A stretch of 64,000 nt of DNA from Ruania alba (lineage in GTDB: Bacteria > Actinomycetota > Actinomycetes > Actinomycetales > Beutenbergiaceae): NCBI RefSeq assembly GCF_900105765.1, contig NZ_FNTX01000001.1, positions 496,001 through 560,000 of the forward strand, written 5' to 3'. This document shows, in pieces, positions 31,933 to 36,466 of the stretch (position 1 is the stretch's first letter; each line of letters begins with the position of its first letter). The notes under the pieces were generated by a model. The model had not been told where the DNA came from and searched no databases. It saw nothing but the letters and a program-made list of their open reading frames with translations. The translations under genes and the position numbers were made by a program.

Positions 31933-33999
31933 ATGTCGGCCCCGGCTGCGACAATCGAGTCGATGTCTGCCGATCAGCTTCTCGATGCGCTCGACCCCGA
32001 TCAACGCGCTGTCGCCGAACAGCTCACCGGTCCGGTGTGTGTGCTCGCTGGTGCCGGTACCGGGAAGACCCGCGCGGTGACCTACCGGATCGCCCACGGG
32101 GTGCACGTCGGCGCGTACAACCCGCAGACCGTTCTCGCCGTCACGTTCACTGCGCGGGCGGCGGGGGAGATGCGCACCCGGTTGCGAGACCTGGGTGTCG
32201 GTGGGGTGCAGGCCCGCACCTTCCACGCCGCCGCGCTGCGCCAGCTCTCCTACTTCTGGCCCAGCGCGATCGGCGGCGGTGTGCCACGCATCGCCGAGCA
32301 CAAGGCGCCGTTGATCGGTGAAGCTGCCGGCCGTCTCGGGCTGTCGGTGGACCGGCTCGCCATCCGTGACCTCGCGGCAGAGGTGGAGTGGGCGAAGGTC
32401 TCCATGATCACTCCGGATGACTACCCGCGAGCCTCGGCCGCCTCGGACCGCAGCGGTGTGGCCGGCTTCGATCCGACCACCATCGCCCGGCTGCTCTCGG
32501 TGTACGAGGACGCCAAGACCGACCGCAATGTCATCGATTTCGAGGACGTCCTCCTGCTCACGGTCGGCATTCTCTCCGAACGTCCGGACGTGGCTGACAC
32601 CGTGCGGCGCCAGTACCGCCATTTCGTGGTGGACGAGTTCCAGGACGTCTCGCCGTTGCAGCACCGGTTGCTCGAGCTGTGGCTCGGCGGCAGGGACGAC
32701 CTGTGCGTGGTGGGTGACGCCGCCCAGACCATCTACTCCTTCACTGGCGCCACCGCTCGCTATCTGACGGAGTTTCCCCGCACGTACCCGGAGGCGACTG
32801 TGGTTCGCCTGGTGCGCGACTACCGCTCCACCCCACAGGTGGTCTCTCTGGCCAACGCCCTGCTCGCGCGGGCCGGTCGCTACCGGTCGGCTGCGTCAGT
32901 TGAACTGCAGGCGCAGCGTCCCTCCGGTCCGGCGGTCAGGTTCGAGGCGCACGACGATGCTGAGTCCGAGGCGACCGCCGTTGCGGCACGAGCGGCCGAA
33001 CTGATCCGTAGTGGCGTGTCGGCCAGTGAGATCGCCGTCCTCTACCGCACGAACGCCCAGTCCGAAGCCTACGAGCAGGCGCTCAGCCAGGCTGGGATCG
33101 GCTATCTGGTTCGTGGCGGAGAACGCTTCTTCTCCCGCAAAGAGGTCCGGGACGCGATCGTGTTGCTGCGCGGGGCGGTCCGTAGCCAAGGGGAGTCCAC
33201 CCTTCCGGAGGTCGTACGCGACGTGCTCACCAGCGCCGGATGGGCGCCCGAGCCGCCGGCCGCACGTGGCGCCGTGCGCGAGCGGTGGGAGTCGCTGAAC
33301 GCGCTGGTGCAGCTCGCCGACGACCTTCACCACACCCGGGGGGCCGATCTGGCGCAACTGGTGGCCGAGCTGGGGGAGCGGTCCGCCGCCCAGCACGCTC
33401 CCACGGTCGACGGCGTCACGCTTGCCTCGCTGCACGCCGCGAAAGGGCTGGAGTGGGACGCGGTGTTCCTGGTGGGAGCCAGCGACGGGCTCCTACCGAT
33501 CTCGATGGCCGAAACCGATGAGGCGGTCGCGGAGGAACGGCGCCTGTTGTACGTGGGCATCACCCGTGCCCGCGAGCACCTGCAGATCTCCTACGCCCGG
33601 TCGCGCAACGCCGGAGGCCGCGGCACCCGCCGTCCTTCCCGATTCCTCGACGGAATCTGGCCCTCGGACGAGCGACCGCCCCGCCGGCGGCGCAGCAAGG
33701 GGGCGCGGGCGGAGGCGTTGGCATCCTCCATCGCGGAGGAGGACGCCGACCCGGAGGTGTTCGAACGCTTGCGCGCCTGGCGTGCGCAGACTGCGCAGGA
33801 ACTCGATCGCCCGGCGTTCACCGTGCTGCACGACAGCACCCTCGTCGCGATCGCTGCGGCGCAGCCCACTCACTTGCGTCAACTGGCCATCCTGCGCGGG
33901 ATCGGCCCCACCAAGATCGAGGCATATGGCGCCCAGATCCTGGCCGTCGTCCGCGGTGAAGAGCTCACCGAAGGTGCCCGCTCAGACACTCCTGTATGA
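31933..33999 (+). CDS. uvrD2: UvrD2-type SF1 DNA helicase with HRDC domain
   Basis: 688 residues. Motifs in order: Walker A GAGTGKTRA near 40-48, TFTARAAGEM, VVDEFQDVS, GDAAQTIYSFTGA, TLASLHAAKGLEWDAVF and YVGITRAREHL. A C-terminal HRDC domain follows (about 610-675). Mycobacterial UvrD2 has a four-cysteine zinc module between motor and HRDC. Here that linker (after FLDGIWPSDE) is basic and has no cysteine, so the module is lost. It is otherwise the expected gene beside whiB7. ATG 31963 is an alternative start. Confidence 0.87.
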   Translation: MSAPAATIESMSADQLLDALDPDQRAVAEQLTGPVCVLAGAGTGKTRAVTYRIAHGVHVGAYNPQTVLAVTFTARAAGEMRTRLRDLGVGGVQARTFHAAALRQLSYFWPSAIGGGVPRIAEHKAPLIGEAAGRLGLSVDRLAIRDLAAEVEWAKVSMITPDDYPRASAASDRSGVAGFDPTTIARLLSVYEDAKTDRNVIDFEDVLLLTVGILSERPDVADTVRRQYRHFVVDEFQDVSPLQHRLLELWLGGRDDLCVVGDAAQTIYSFTGATARYLTEFPRTYPEATVVRLVRDYRSTPQVVSLANALLARAGRYRSAASVELQAQRPSGPAVRFEAHDDAESEATAVAARAAELIRSGVSASEIAVLYRTNAQSEAYEQALSQAGIGYLVRGGERFFSRKEVRDAIVLLRGAVRSQGESTLPEVVRDVLTSAGWAPEPPAARGAVRERWESLNALVQLADDLHHTRGADLAQLVAELGERSAAQHAPTVDGVTLASLHAAKGLEWDAVFLVGASDGLLPISMAETDEAVAEERRLLYVGITRAREHLQISYARSRNAGGRGTRRPSRFLDGIWPSDERPPRRRRSKGARAEALASSIAEEDADPEVFERLRAWRAQTAQELDRPAFTVLHDSTLVAIAAAQPTHLRQLAILRGIGPTKIEAYGAQILAVVRGEELTEGARSDTPV

Positions 34000-34007
34000 G
34001 CGATGAG

Positions 34008-34056
34008 AAAAAACTTCGAAAAAAAGTTTGGACCACGGCCGGAGTCGTCATAGGCT
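34008..34056 (+). promoter_or_regulatory. whiB7 promoter with A-tract element
   Basis: A6 (34008-34013) and A7 (34019-34025) tracts sit just before TTGGAC (34028-34033), a 17-base spacer and TAGGCT (34051-34056). An AT-rich element immediately upstream of the -35 box is the known mark of WhiB7-activated promoters, so autoactivation is expected. Such A-runs are very rare elsewhere in this GC-rich window. Confidence 0.75.
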
Positions 34057-34136
34057 GAATCCCGTTCCGAGACAGATGCGAGCCGTCGCCTAGCCAGCGA
34101 GACACGGTTCCTGAGCCGAAGGAGGTGGAAAGCGCA

Positions 34137-34313
34137 GTGGATATGAAGAACCAGATCAGCCCGTCGACGATCGGCGTGCGACTGAGCGACCTGCGCACGT
34201 TCACCTTCGTGCGCCCGCGCTCCGTCGCCGGCCTGATCGGCGTGGCGATCACCGGCTCCGGTGATCCCGCTACCGGCGGCAACACCCCCGGCTCCGCCCC
34301 GGAACTGCTCTGA
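34137..34313 (+). CDS. whiB7 leader upstream reading frame
   Basis: 58 codons from GTG 34137, ten bases after AAGGAGGT (34119-34126), the strongest ribosome site in the region. ATG 34143 is in frame but badly spaced. The peptide is not recognised; it is basic in the middle (RTFTFVRPRS) and Gly/Pro-rich at the end. It lies wholly in the whiB7 leader and stops 23 bases before an intrinsic terminator. Known whiB7 leaders use translation of such a frame to sense ribosome-inhibiting drugs. The regulatory role here is inferred from that arrangement. Confidence 0.75.
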   Translation: MDMKNQISPSTIGVRLSDLRTFTFVRPRSVAGLIGVAITGSGDPATGGNTPGSAPELL

Positions 34314-34336
34314 CAGCACCACTCCTGTAGCAGTTC

Positions 34337-34368
34337 AGGTCGCGGAGCCCCTCACGGGTCCGCGACCT
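34337..34368 (+). terminator. Intrinsic terminator in the whiB7 leader (attenuator)
   Basis: AGGTCGCGGA (34337-34346) pairs with TCCGCGACCT (34359-34368), and inner CCC/GGG extends the stem around loop CTCAC. A T-rich stretch (catttgtgtgtg) follows. It stands between the upstream frame and whiB7, so it would stop transcription unless relieved. Confidence 0.75.
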
Positions 34369-34448
34369 CATTTGTGTGTGAGCCACAGCTCCACCGAGTG
34401 ATGACGGACCTCTCCGGCTCATCACCCACCATGCCTCAGGAGCATCTC

Positions 34449-34817
34449 GTGCAGTACACCTCAGTTCTCGACCAACTCACCCGCGGGGGGTCGGCGACTG
34501 GCTGGAGCTTCCCGTCCTCGTCGATCGACCTCACCGCCGTCGACGATCAACCCCTGCCCTGCCAGGACACCACCACCCAAGACCTCTGGTTCGCTGAGCG
34601 GACCGACGAGATCGAGCGGGCCAAAGCACTCTGCACCGAGTGCCCGCTCAGGGCCGAGTGCCTGGCCGGAGCCCTCGAACGGCGCGAGCCGTGGGGTGTC
34701 TGGGGTGGTGAGGTCTTCGTCGACGGTCAGGTCGTCGCCCGCAAGCGCGGACGCGGCCGCCCCCGCAAGAATGACCCGTACGCGCCGGCCGCCTCACGCA
34801 GCAGTTCCGCTGCGTGA
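34449..34817 (+). CDS. whiB7: WhiB7 iron-sulfur transcriptional regulator
   Basis: 122 residues from GTG 34449, chosen because AGGAG lies six bases upstream; longer frames from 34374, 34401 or 34431 lack this. Four cluster cysteines C38, C62, C65 and C71 bind [4Fe-4S]. The SigA-contact turn GVWGG is at 83-87 and the AT-hook RGRGRPRK at 100-107, which marks WhiB7 rather than other Wbl proteins. It activates intrinsic antibiotic-resistance genes at AT-rich promoters with the housekeeping sigma factor. It is preceded by an A-tract promoter, leader reading frame and terminator. Confidence 0.93.
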   Translation: MQYTSVLDQLTRGGSATGWSFPSSSIDLTAVDDQPLPCQDTTTQDLWFAERTDEIERAKALCTECPLRAECLAGALERREPWGVWGGEVFVDGQVVARKRGRGRPRKNDPYAPAASRSSSAA

Positions 34818-34820
34818 GGC
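34791..34820 (+). terminator. Perfect hairpin across the whiB7 stop codon
   Basis: GCCTCACGCAGC (34791-34802), loop AGTTCC, GCTGCGTGAGGC (34809-34820): a twelve-pair perfect stem spanning the last codons and stop, before the convergent ThiF-like gene. Confidence 0.6.
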
Positions 34821-34830
34821 GCGTCGCCGC

Positions 34831-35838
34831 CTACGCGCTGACCGGCTCGATCAGCGCCGTCACCGTGCACCCGCACTCCGGGTGCGGTCCCCACCTGCGT
34901 ACCTCCGGCACCGGTTGCCACGCCGTCACCTCGAGCGTGGCGCCCTCCGACGCCACTGCCCGACCATCCACGACGGCCAGCAGTTGCTGGGCGGCTAAGG
35001 CAGCGCCTGACCAGGCCAGACTCGTCTCCGTTCCGCGCGGCCTCGTGGCACGAGCGGCGGCCTGTGTCGCGACCGCGGGCCATCGCGGATCGAGCATGCA
35101 CCGGTACAGGTCCAGGCACCGGGTACATGCGCCTAGTCCAGGACGCACCATCGGCCCGACCGTGACCGACAGTTCACCGCTGAGGACGCTCAGGTGCGGG
35201 ACGTCCTCACGCATCAGGTCCCGCACCGCCACCGGGTCCACCACGCTCTGGTGCACGAGCACCACCAGGTCGGGACGTGTCGCCTCGGGTGTGCTCACCC
35301 GGACCCGAGGTGCCGCGGTCCGTAGTATCGGCAGGGCAGCCCGCAGCCGCGAGTGACCCACGTCTGCCGGACGGAACAGCCCGGGTGAGACATCGTGCTC
35401 GGTCACCGTGGCATCGTCCCGGAGCACGAGGGTCCCCACACCCGCCTCCGCGGCGATCAGAGCGGTCTGCAGCCCCAGCCGGTCGAGCCCGCGGATCTCC
35501 ACCACCGCCGTGGCACGGTCAGCGTGGCACTCGATCCCGACGCTGGCGGCACGGTCCCAGTAGCGCCTGTCCGGCCCGTCCTCACCGCCCACCCGCTCAG
35601 TCAACAGGTCCGCGTCCTTCAGCCGACCGATCAACTCCCGCACCTGTGCCGCGCTCATCCCCAAGCGGTTCCCGCGCTCGCGCAGCATCGATACGTCGTA
35701 GACGCGCGATGCGTGCTCGAGCAGCGCCTGAGCGTTCTCGCTCAGCCCGTCCAGCACCACCGCGCACCGTGGGTCCAGGCCGAGCTGGCTCGTCCCGGGC
35801 TCACGCCAATACACCTCATATCCAGGTCGGACTCGCAT
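34831..35838 (-). CDS. ThiF/cyclodehydratase-like protein (Rv3196-type)
   Basis: 335 residues from ATG 35838, with GGAGG just upstream. N-terminal ~110 residues are a winged-helix-like region. Then comes an E1/ThiF-like Rossmann segment (VEIRGLDRLGLQTALIAAEAG) and a zinc-type CTRC pair (GACTRCLDLYRC) with more Cys near the end (ECGCT). Relatives are annotated as bacteriocin cyclodehydratase-like, but no precursor peptide or dehydrogenase lies nearby, so RiPP synthesis is doubtful. A counterpart lies near whiB7 in mycobacteria, suggesting a housekeeping role. The glycine motif for ATP is poorly kept. Confidence 0.7.
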   Translation of the reverse strand: MRVRPGYEVYWREPGTSQLGLDPRCAVVLDGLSENAQALLEHASRVYDVSMLRERGNRLGMSAAQVRELIGRLKDADLLTERVGGEDGPDRRYWDRAASVGIECHADRATAVVEIRGLDRLGLQTALIAAEAGVGTLVLRDDATVTEHDVSPGLFRPADVGHSRLRAALPILRTAAPRVRVSTPEATRPDLVVLVHQSVVDPVAVRDLMREDVPHLSVLSGELSVTVGPMVRPGLGACTRCLDLYRCMLDPRWPAVATQAAARATRPRGTETSLAWSGAALAAQQLLAVVDGRAVASEGATLEVTAWQPVPEVRRWGPHPECGCTVTALIEPVSA

Positions 35839-35938
35839 CTCGCCTCCTCGCGGCGAGCGTGGCACATCGTGGGCTGCCGTCGCCGGGACTCTCCGAGGGC
35901 CTGTGGATAACCCGGCCGACCTGTGCCACGCTGTCGCT

Positions 35939-36466
35939 GTGAGCGCATTGGAGGCGGCCCGCGAGGTGGACGGGGAGACCGTTGTGGTGCGGCGCAGCGC
36001 CCGACGGCGCAAGACCGTCTCCGCGTTCCGTGAGGACGGCTGCACCGTGGTGTCCATCCCGAGCAGGTTCAGCCGCGCGGAGGAGGAGCACTGGGTGCGC
36101 CGGATGCTTGCCCGCTTGGCCGCCTCGGAAGGGCGGCGTTGTCCGGACGCCGATGCGTTGACTGCGCGCGCGCAGGAACTGGCTGCCCGGTACCTCGACG
36201 AACGGGCCGCTCCGACCACCGTGACCTGGGTCAGCAACCAGGGCTCACGGTGGGGGTCGTGCACTCCGGCCAGCGGCACCATCCGGATCTCCGACCGCGT
36301 GCAGGGAATGCCCGGCTGGGTTCTTGACTACGTCCTGTTGCACGAGCTCGCGCACCTCATCGAGCCTGGCCATGACGAGAACTTCTGGGCTCTCGTGAAG
36401 CGCTATCCGCAGACGGAGCGGGCCCGTGGTTTCCTCCTCGGGGTCATCCACGCCGACCAGGGCTGA
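35939..36466 (+). CDS. YgjP-like (DUF45/M48) zinc metallopeptidase
   Basis: 175 residues from GTG 35939. It has the RxSRRRKT-type start, the SNQGSRWGSCTP motif near residue 101 and the zinc site HELAHLIEPGHDENFW. This fits the SprT/YgjP (WLM-like) group of small soluble metallopeptidases. Substrate is unknown. It is divergent from the ThiF-like gene, with 100 bases between starts. Confidence 0.83.
   Translation: MSALEAAREVDGETVVVRRSARRRKTVSAFREDGCTVVSIPSRFSRAEEEHWVRRMLARLAASEGRRCPDADALTARAQELAARYLDERAAPTTVTWVSNQGSRWGSCTPASGTIRISDRVQGMPGWVLDYVLLHELAHLIEPGHDENFWALVKRYPQTERARGFLLGVIHADQG

Follow-up and report, generated by a model that had tools for sequence, protein, structure and literature searches.

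Two questions arise at the locus of whiB7, an antibiotic-resistance regulator, in the soil actinobacterium Ruania alba: whether the reading frame ahead of the gene belongs to an attenuator and, if so, what signal that attenuator reads. The window, the whole stretch of 64,000 nucleotides that was analysed, comes from a genome of 4.83 Mb in which five WhiB-domain genes were found, whiB7 among them. All of the evidence presented here is drawn from sequence and computation.

The whiB7 gene, its promoter and the leader frame

The gene and the elements that precede it are as follows.

31933–33999, + strand: UvrD-type helicase gene with an HRDC domain, adjoining whiB7
34008–34025, + strand: A6 (34008–34013) and A7 (34019–34025) tracts upstream of the −35 box, a putative WhiB7-type AT-rich box
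34028–34056, + strand: predicted promoter, −35 box TTGGAC (34028–34033), 17-nt spacer, −10 box TAGGCT (34051–34056)
34119–34127, + strand: Shine-Dalgarno (SD) sequence AAGGAGGTG of the leader ORF
34137–34313, + strand: leader ORF (uORF), GTG start, 58 sense codons, TGA at 34311–34313
34438–34442, + strand: ribosome-binding site AGGAG of whiB7
34449–34817, + strand: whiB7, GTG start, 122 aa, with WhiB domain, GVWGGE and AT-hook RGRGRPRK

The whiB7 product matches PF02467 at E 8.5e-15 and bears its AT-hook at the C-terminus of the translation; NCBIfam lists no family for it. The first-pass annotation had started the gene at GTG with an AGGAG of its own, and both were found at those places. The GTG at 34449 and the CAGGAGCA that precedes it are conserved in all 14 leaders listed, and the in-frame ATG at 34431, upstream of this start, is missing from four leaders (L011–L013 and L019).

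The helicase gene ends 8 nt upstream of the first A-tract of the whiB7 promoter. In mycobacteria, uvrD2 and whiB7 are also found as neighbours. On the other side, a ThiF-domain gene (PF00899, E 1.7e-7; 34834–36282, − strand) is convergent with whiB7 and has sub-threshold similarity to leader-binding proteins of TOMM precursors. Around the whiB7 stop, and overlapping its last codons, lies a perfect inverted repeat of 13 pairs (CGCCTCACGCAGC/GCTGCGTGAGGCG, 34790–34821), which looks like a terminator of whiB7 without a T tail. Three relatives (G007, G003 and G009) carry an extra gene (L036, L037 and L038) with 61–64% identity to WhiB7 over 78–88 residues.

The succession of A6 and A7 tracts, −35 box and −10 box described at first pass was recovered both by direct reading and by pattern, and transcription is predicted to start near 34063. 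A simple promoter scan reported no site, the boxes being weak matches to its consensus, which is that of E. coli. For WblC, a box of sequence GAAAWY lying 3 nt ahead of the −35 is described (PMC7157823). The A-tracts at 34008–34025 fit this box only loosely; an A-rich stretch 5' of a TTGG −35 is also seen, by eye, in relatives of the same genus.

The leader frame with its AAGGAGGTG, likewise noted earlier, is present and was read both directly and by pattern. The ORF listing begins the frame at an upstream GTG (34125, giving 62 aa); we favour 34137 because of its spacing from the SD, and ATG 34143 is a possible alternative start. Twelve close leaders, eight of the same genus and four of another genus of the same family, all have an open frame of 55–59 codons at the same place, in which changes come in whole codons and keep the frame open.

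Terminator, antiterminator and the proposed switch

Four elements around the end of the uORF bear on termination.

34290–34297, + strand: 5' arm of the antiterminator, GGCUCCGC, in the uORF codons for Pro-Gly-Ser-Ala
34302–34336, + strand: inner antiterminator helix, GAACUGCU (34302–34309) with AGCAGUUC (34329–34336), enclosing the uORF stop
34337–34368, + strand: terminator hairpin of the intrinsic type, with 10 pairs and, above a bulge, 3 more
34342–34349, + strand: 3' arm of the antiterminator, GCGGAGCC, its first part (34342–34346) common to the 5' arm of the terminator

The ten-pair stem announced by the first-pass annotation was found at exactly 34337–34368, with arms AGGTCGCGGA (34337–34346) and TCCGCGACCT (34359–34368); a simple scan listed only part of this hairpin. 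Its T tail is poor (CATTTGTG, 34369–34376). Folded alone, the terminator hairpin has −24.4 kcal/mol and the antiterminator hairpin −34.5 kcal/mol. The region as a whole is more stable than its shuffles, with z −5.38 for 34063–34385 (100 shuffles) and z −3.87 for 34270–34385 (200 shuffles), and in neither case was a shuffle equally stable.

The earlier list of elements held up for the parts that it named and had missed the antiterminator, which is nevertheless present as a pairing of GGCTCCGC (34290–34297) with GCGGAGCC (34342–34349). Antiterminator and terminator are mutually exclusive, because 34342–34346 belong to both. The geometry is steady: in all 12 close leaders the distance from the beginning of the antiterminator 5' arm to the end of the uORF stop is 24–25 nt, and 24–29 nt separate the end of the stop from the 3' arm.

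Covariation was examined in 32 leaders (29 distinct) from the same family and other genera of the order. In the antiterminator helix 98.7% of cells are paired, a percentage inflated because the leaders were selected by patterns that fix part of both arms. One pair is AU in 18 leaders and GC in 11, and the next is CG in 25, UA in three and UG in one. The covariation score of 0.218 compares with 0.132 (sd 0.013) for shuffles, none of 500 being as high, and with at most 0.072 for slid controls; two pairs carry this signal, which reflects few evolutionary events. Of the five measures, two fail to exceed shuffles, namely pairs with a double change (2 against 1.8; 314 of 500) and further pair types (5 against 5.8). 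For the terminator, in the same 32 leaders, 92.8% of cells are paired, four pairs show a double change (a number reached by 2 of 500 shuffles) and covariation scores 0.159 against 0.086 (sd 0.010) in shuffles; its tenth pair is unpaired in 16 of the 29 leaders.

An automatic search for pairing between the terminator arm and upstream sequence was abandoned in favour of this alignment covariation, being weak on single GC-rich sequences. Arm complementarity in single sequences barely exceeded that of GC-rich shuffles (z averaged 0.48 across 93 loci; of the 105, the other 12 were skipped as too short), and the automatic picker often chose the wrong hairpin, in the Ruania alba leader too. The whiB7 terminator pattern matched at 66 of the 105 loci; it missed the variant of Ruania alba itself, which was seen by eye.

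Two other readings of the hairpin can be weighed at this point. Were it merely the terminator of the upstream helicase gene, with the leader frame untranslated, the end of that gene at 33999 and the abundance in this GC-rich DNA of chance frames of such length would both be accommodated. The promoter-like stretch and SD, the whole-codon changes in the open frames of all 12 close leaders, the steady distance from stop to arm and the covarying antiterminator speak against this reading, which we consider extremely improbable. Alternatively, termination may proceed mainly through Rho or NusG-assisted pausing, the antiterminator acting indirectly. Such a route would suit the weak T tail; it is at odds with the strength and covariation of the hairpin and with reviews that call the whiB7 terminator Rho-independent (PMC11550727, PMC9618640), and we hold it to be improbable.

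The leader is, with high confidence, a transcription attenuator of whiB7 that works through the ribosome. The order of folding was modelled on a transcript ending at 34352, with a ribosome footprint of −13 to +16 and every third codon tested. The minimum-free-energy fold contains the whole antiterminator (16 of 16 pairs) when no ribosome is present, and likewise for every P-site position tested between codons 1 and 46. With the P site at codon 49, eight of the 16 pairs are left, and at codons 52, 55 and 58 none. Eight return when the P site is placed on the stop codon itself; we take the terminating ribosome to have its P site at codon 58. Since in this model the antiterminator stays available for all ribosome positions tested as far as codon 46 of 58, the switch does not call for a special control codon. 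At equilibrium the terminator prevails (P 0.83–0.98) whether a ribosome is present or not, and forced folds over 34137–34385 give −123.9 kcal/mol for the terminator and −120.6 kcal/mol for the antiterminator; the switch must therefore be kinetic.

We infer the following course of events. Transcription would begin near 34063, and RNA polymerase would make a 5' hairpin and then the uORF. A leading ribosome translating at normal speed would reach the stop at 34311–34313 and cover the 5' side of the antiterminator (34290–34309), so that the terminator at 34337–34368 could form and the RNA would end upstream of whiB7. A ribosome stalled or slowed before about codon 47 by any cause, such as a drug or uncharged tRNA, or one that never loaded, would leave the 5' side free as 34342–34349 emerges. 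The antiterminator would then form first and block the terminator, and whiB7 would be made; WhiB7 may in turn strengthen its own promoter.

The 5' hairpin and the ribosome-binding site of the leader frame

Two further elements lie outside the core of this switch.

34080–34110, + strand: 5' hairpin, stem GAGCCGU/ACGGUUC, inner stem CGC/GCG, heptaloop CUAGCCA (34090–34096) and a 4-nt bulge on the 3' side
34200–34208, + strand: anti-SD segment UUCACCUUC in uORF codons 22–24, able to pair with 34121–34129

The 5' hairpin, which stands between promoter and uORF and reads GAGCCGU-CGC-CUAGCCA-GCG-AGAC-ACGGUUC, very probably exists as a conserved structure in the RNA, as judged from sequence comparison. 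It is found in 23 of the 24 genomes of the Ruania family, the remaining one having no readable upstream sequence. Locus L018, whose contig extends only 203 nt beyond whiB7 on the upstream side, was left out of the tests on 5' hairpin and uORF. When stems were anchored on the loop in 24 leaders (the 23 family loci with upstream sequence, and Georgenia thermotolerans), each had a lower stem of 5–8 pairs, with a mean of 6.54; 200 sets with base-shuffled flanks gave a mean of 3.14 (sd 0.40) and a maximum of 4.58. The loop is CUAGCCA in 21 of these leaders, CUCACCA in two and CCAGCCA in one, a conservation that is partly by construction, because the leaders were located with a loop pattern allowing those variants. 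No family locus with upstream sequence was without the loop, which lies 21–27 nt upstream of the uORF SD in all 23 leaders measured.

RNAalifold returned no pairs for the hairpin on MAFFT alignment A1, a result that we put down to the 3' bulge, as its length varies and it was left ungapped. This analysis was replaced by the loop-anchored test and by a model-fitted alignment of 21 leaders (16 distinct). In the latter, whose counts lean towards structure, 96.1% of cells pair and five pairs change on both sides (31 of 500 shuffles have as many). The covariation score of 0.535 compares with 0.275 (sd 0.033) in shuffles, none of 500 reaching it, and with at most 0.155 when slid. Alignment A4 is without L010 and L032, L019 (which also has a false match) was left out of the sources, and L039, L040, L041, L051 and L080 were omitted as duplicates of other loci.

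The 11-mer GCCTAGCCAGC occurs once in the Ruania alba genome, at the hairpin, against 21 sites for the reversed control; the 24 family genomes contain 31 copies, spread over 20 genomes, and 19 of these copies lie in whiB7 leaders. A first covariance model (R1) was set aside, being biased to its eight seed sequences, with some true sites at chance level; its list included, from E 0.002 upwards, sites remote from whiB7. Its replacement, R2, was run with strict filters and 24 candidates scored per genome. At E ≤0.001 it found the hairpin in 21 of 297 genomes of the order, all 21 in the same family and in the whiB7 leader, and it missed three of the 24 family genomes. No Rfam family reached its gathering score in the leader: in the whole window only a tRNA was reported, and 34000–34500 gave three sub-threshold matches to unrelated families. 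No description of the hairpin was found in the literature searched, a scope outside which Lee 2022 and Poulton 2024 fall. It is this conserved hairpin that looks new here, the core attenuator being ordinary.

A partner for the loop, of at least 6 pairs, was sought in the leader and early whiB7. Seven of the 24 leaders had any match, in L006, L008 and L009 at one shared place in whiB7 and in the others elsewhere, and none was conserved across the family. A kissing loop within the leader was accordingly dropped, and a factor acting in trans or a tertiary fold becomes the likelier reason for the conservation of the loop. That the hairpin keeps the 5' region off the ribosome-binding site of the uORF while its loop is bound in trans is a guess, which we offer tentatively.

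Hairpins at about the same place occur elsewhere in the order. In 14 of 20 leaders from other genera, among them Oerskovia, Cellulosimicrobium, Sanguibacter, Promicromonospora and Isoptericola, a GNRA-capped hairpin of at least 4 pairs lies 36–44 nt before the uORF start (L030, L031, L044, L046, L047, L048, L049, L056, L062, L063, L073, L091, L095 and L098), with the cap CCGAGAGG in 10 of the 14. For each of these hairpins, 0–13 of 100 shuffles were as good, and the mean of the best hairpins over the 20 leaders was 4.4 pairs against 1.5. None was seen in this form in the other six (three Cellulomonas leaders, L055, L082 and L089); for two more leaders in the search no uORF start was found. A hairpin near this place may be general and its loop lineage-specific.

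The leader could also sense ribosome loading. The anti-SD segment, in uORF codons 20–25 across the leaders, would mask the SD once transcribed, so that only a ribosome loading within about 75–80 nt translates the uORF; poor loading would leave it untranslated and whiB7 on. In each of the 12 close leaders, the segment that best complements SD and spacer begins at one of uORF codons 19–22 and forms 9–12 contiguous pairs, equalled by 0–6 of 100 dinucleotide shuffles. The covariation score is 0.372 against 0.211 (sd 0.030), with none of 500 shuffles as high and at most 0.165 when slid, and compensating changes join GGUGAGC with GCUCACC, GGUGAAC with GUUCACC and AGUGA with UCACU. In nascent folding at +75 nt the SD is masked with a probability of 0.99 in Ruania alba and of 0.50–0.99 in the nine of the 12 leaders that were folded.

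Against this stand several observations. The pairing is weak in Ruania alba and stronger in its relatives: here the helix has two G-U pairs and z 1.6 (1.2 in L007), and the mask reopens at +90 nt (0.02). Synonymous recodings equal it in 125 of 200 cases here and 156 of 200 in L007, and in 1 to 66 of 200 in the other ten leaders. Shuffles were not beaten in double-change pairs (3 against 2.3; 229 of 500) or in pair types (6 against 8.4), the SD of L023, from the same family, is unmasked in nascent folding, and the 12 leaders are closely related. We regard SD masking as a lead weaker than the 5' hairpin, and a loading sensor built on it as rather doubtful.

Complements of the SD and spacer are also seen near uORF codons 10–11 in five of the seven Mycobacterium leaders in which a uORF was found (L070, L075, L076, L085 and L087; TGGCCACG/CGTGGCCG type), and in L064, L101 and L110 from some Pseudonocardiaceae or relatives (GAGGTGCC/GGCACCTC type), as possible SD masks with z 0.8–3.3. 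Among the 50 leaders outside the 12, z exceeds 2 in nine, with a mean of 0.85.

The signal and comparison with known systems

The unfamiliar peptide had been taken as a hint of another drug or starvation signal; this suggestion found no support, as the peptide evolves fast and almost any stall site would serve. The leader peptide differs in sequence in every relative. In ten chosen pairs the uORF has a dN/dS of 0.47–1.64, against 0.03–0.21 for whiB7 in eight of those pairs, and in all eight shared pairs the pS of the uORF is below that of whiB7, which points to selection on RNA structure rather than peptide. Comparing peptides and RNA folds across relatives, a check named at first pass, came out in favour of attenuation, as both helices covary, and against a signal of its own, as the peptides drift.

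A sensor whose peptide halts the ribosome at a single site in response to one drug or amino acid, giving this leader a signal of its own, could explain the few positions that recur: an Arg at one column in all 15 aligned leaders and, in 12 of 15, a second Arg and a Thr, with varying synonymous codons, as well as Ala-Gly in 12–13 of 15. Besides the rates given above, it faces a Pro-Gly-Ser near the uORF end that is conserved because it encodes the antiterminator 5' arm, Phe/Leu-Thr codons that sit in the anti-SD segment in all 12 close leaders, and a stall window of about 46 codons in the folding model. We judge it quite improbable. The most likely signal is a slowing of the ribosome at any point in the initial four fifths of the uORF. 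The 15 peptides are rich in Gly (14.6%), Ala (13.1%), Thr (9.1%) and Arg (8.5%), and no run of one residue that would form a control-codon cluster of the trp or ilv type was seen by eye in the uORF translations.

A trp-like helix within the uORF is not claimed, as folds differ among clades. Four leaders from two other genera of the family (L024, L025, L026 and L029) keep the 5' hairpin, have a short uORF of 32–41 codons and leave the usual whiB7 terminator pattern unmatched; their attenuator may differ.

Ruania-type actinobacteria have an intact whiB7 uORF attenuator whose leader peptide can drift; this speaks for a switch that senses ribosome trouble in general and not one drug. If the 5' hairpin is functional, the control of whiB7 has an unexamined input common to the whole family, and the conserved loop is a direct handle for finding its partner. 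It is conceivable, although on balance we doubt it, that the leader in this family is a four-part sensor, in which a protein, ribosome or small RNA would recognise the loop in trans, at its near-fixed distance from the SD, and the anti-SD would close the SD behind the first ribosome. Were this so, the leader would read ribosome loading as well as stalling, and 5' hairpins (GNRA-capped elsewhere in the order), together with SD masks inside the uORF, including those near codons 10–11 in Mycobacterium and some Pseudonocardiaceae, would be general and overlooked layers of whiB7 control.

Among known systems, the leader of the E. coli trp operon offers a parallel, in that a distal segment of the leader can mask the ribosome-binding site of its leader peptide. 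It shares attenuation, and SD masking resembling the lead described here; it differs in its tryptophan codons and its structures, and the two are not related by descent.

Much closer is the whiB7/wblC attenuator of Mycobacterium and Streptomyces. Published accounts between them describe uORF attenuation with a terminator, an antiterminator and responses to several drugs and amino-acid starvation (PMC11550727, PMC9618640, PMC10727445, PMC13393426, PMC12121999), and the uORF, terminator and early termination of mycobacterial whiB7 (Dinan 2014, PMC4128351); Burian and Thompson 2018 and Lee, Lee and Roe 2022 are cited for the same attenuator. By the account in PMC12121999, stalling within the whiB7 uORF was untested at its time. 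Since this mechanism is already in print, and the antiterminator of Ruania alba is present and covaries, the proposal that the leader frame attenuates whiB7 is supported and the core switch is of the known kind. Shared are the gene, a sigma-70-type promoter preceded by an AT-rich box (here putative), a uORF with a strong SD, a terminator of the Rho-independent type after the uORF (here predicted) and an antiterminator that uses the uORF end and the terminator 5' arm. The peptide sequence differs, as does the CUAGCCA-loop hairpin before the uORF. The antiterminator arm here lies in Pro-Gly-Ser codons (GGCUCCGC/GCGGAGCC), whereas other aligned leaders have Pro-Asp-Ser (GACUCCG).

Other uORF switches share single features. 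In the ilvB1 attenuator of Mycobacterium tuberculosis, too, the position of the leading ribosome on a uORF sets the choice between antiterminator and terminator, but it is described as reading named control codons, LVVI (PMC13236596), a cluster without counterpart here. The tiaA and are5sc leaders of Streptomyces are likewise uORF attenuators of resistance genes, with very short uORFs and other genes (PMC12421871). Their uORF ribosome-binding sites overlap antiterminator hairpins, a precedent for an SD held in structure, whereas the SD here would pair with codons inside the uORF. Instead of an intrinsic terminator, the toiL uORF of topAI in E. coli controls translation and termination by Rho (PMC12121999); as would be expected of the leader described here, this one uORF responds to several classes of ribosome inhibitor.
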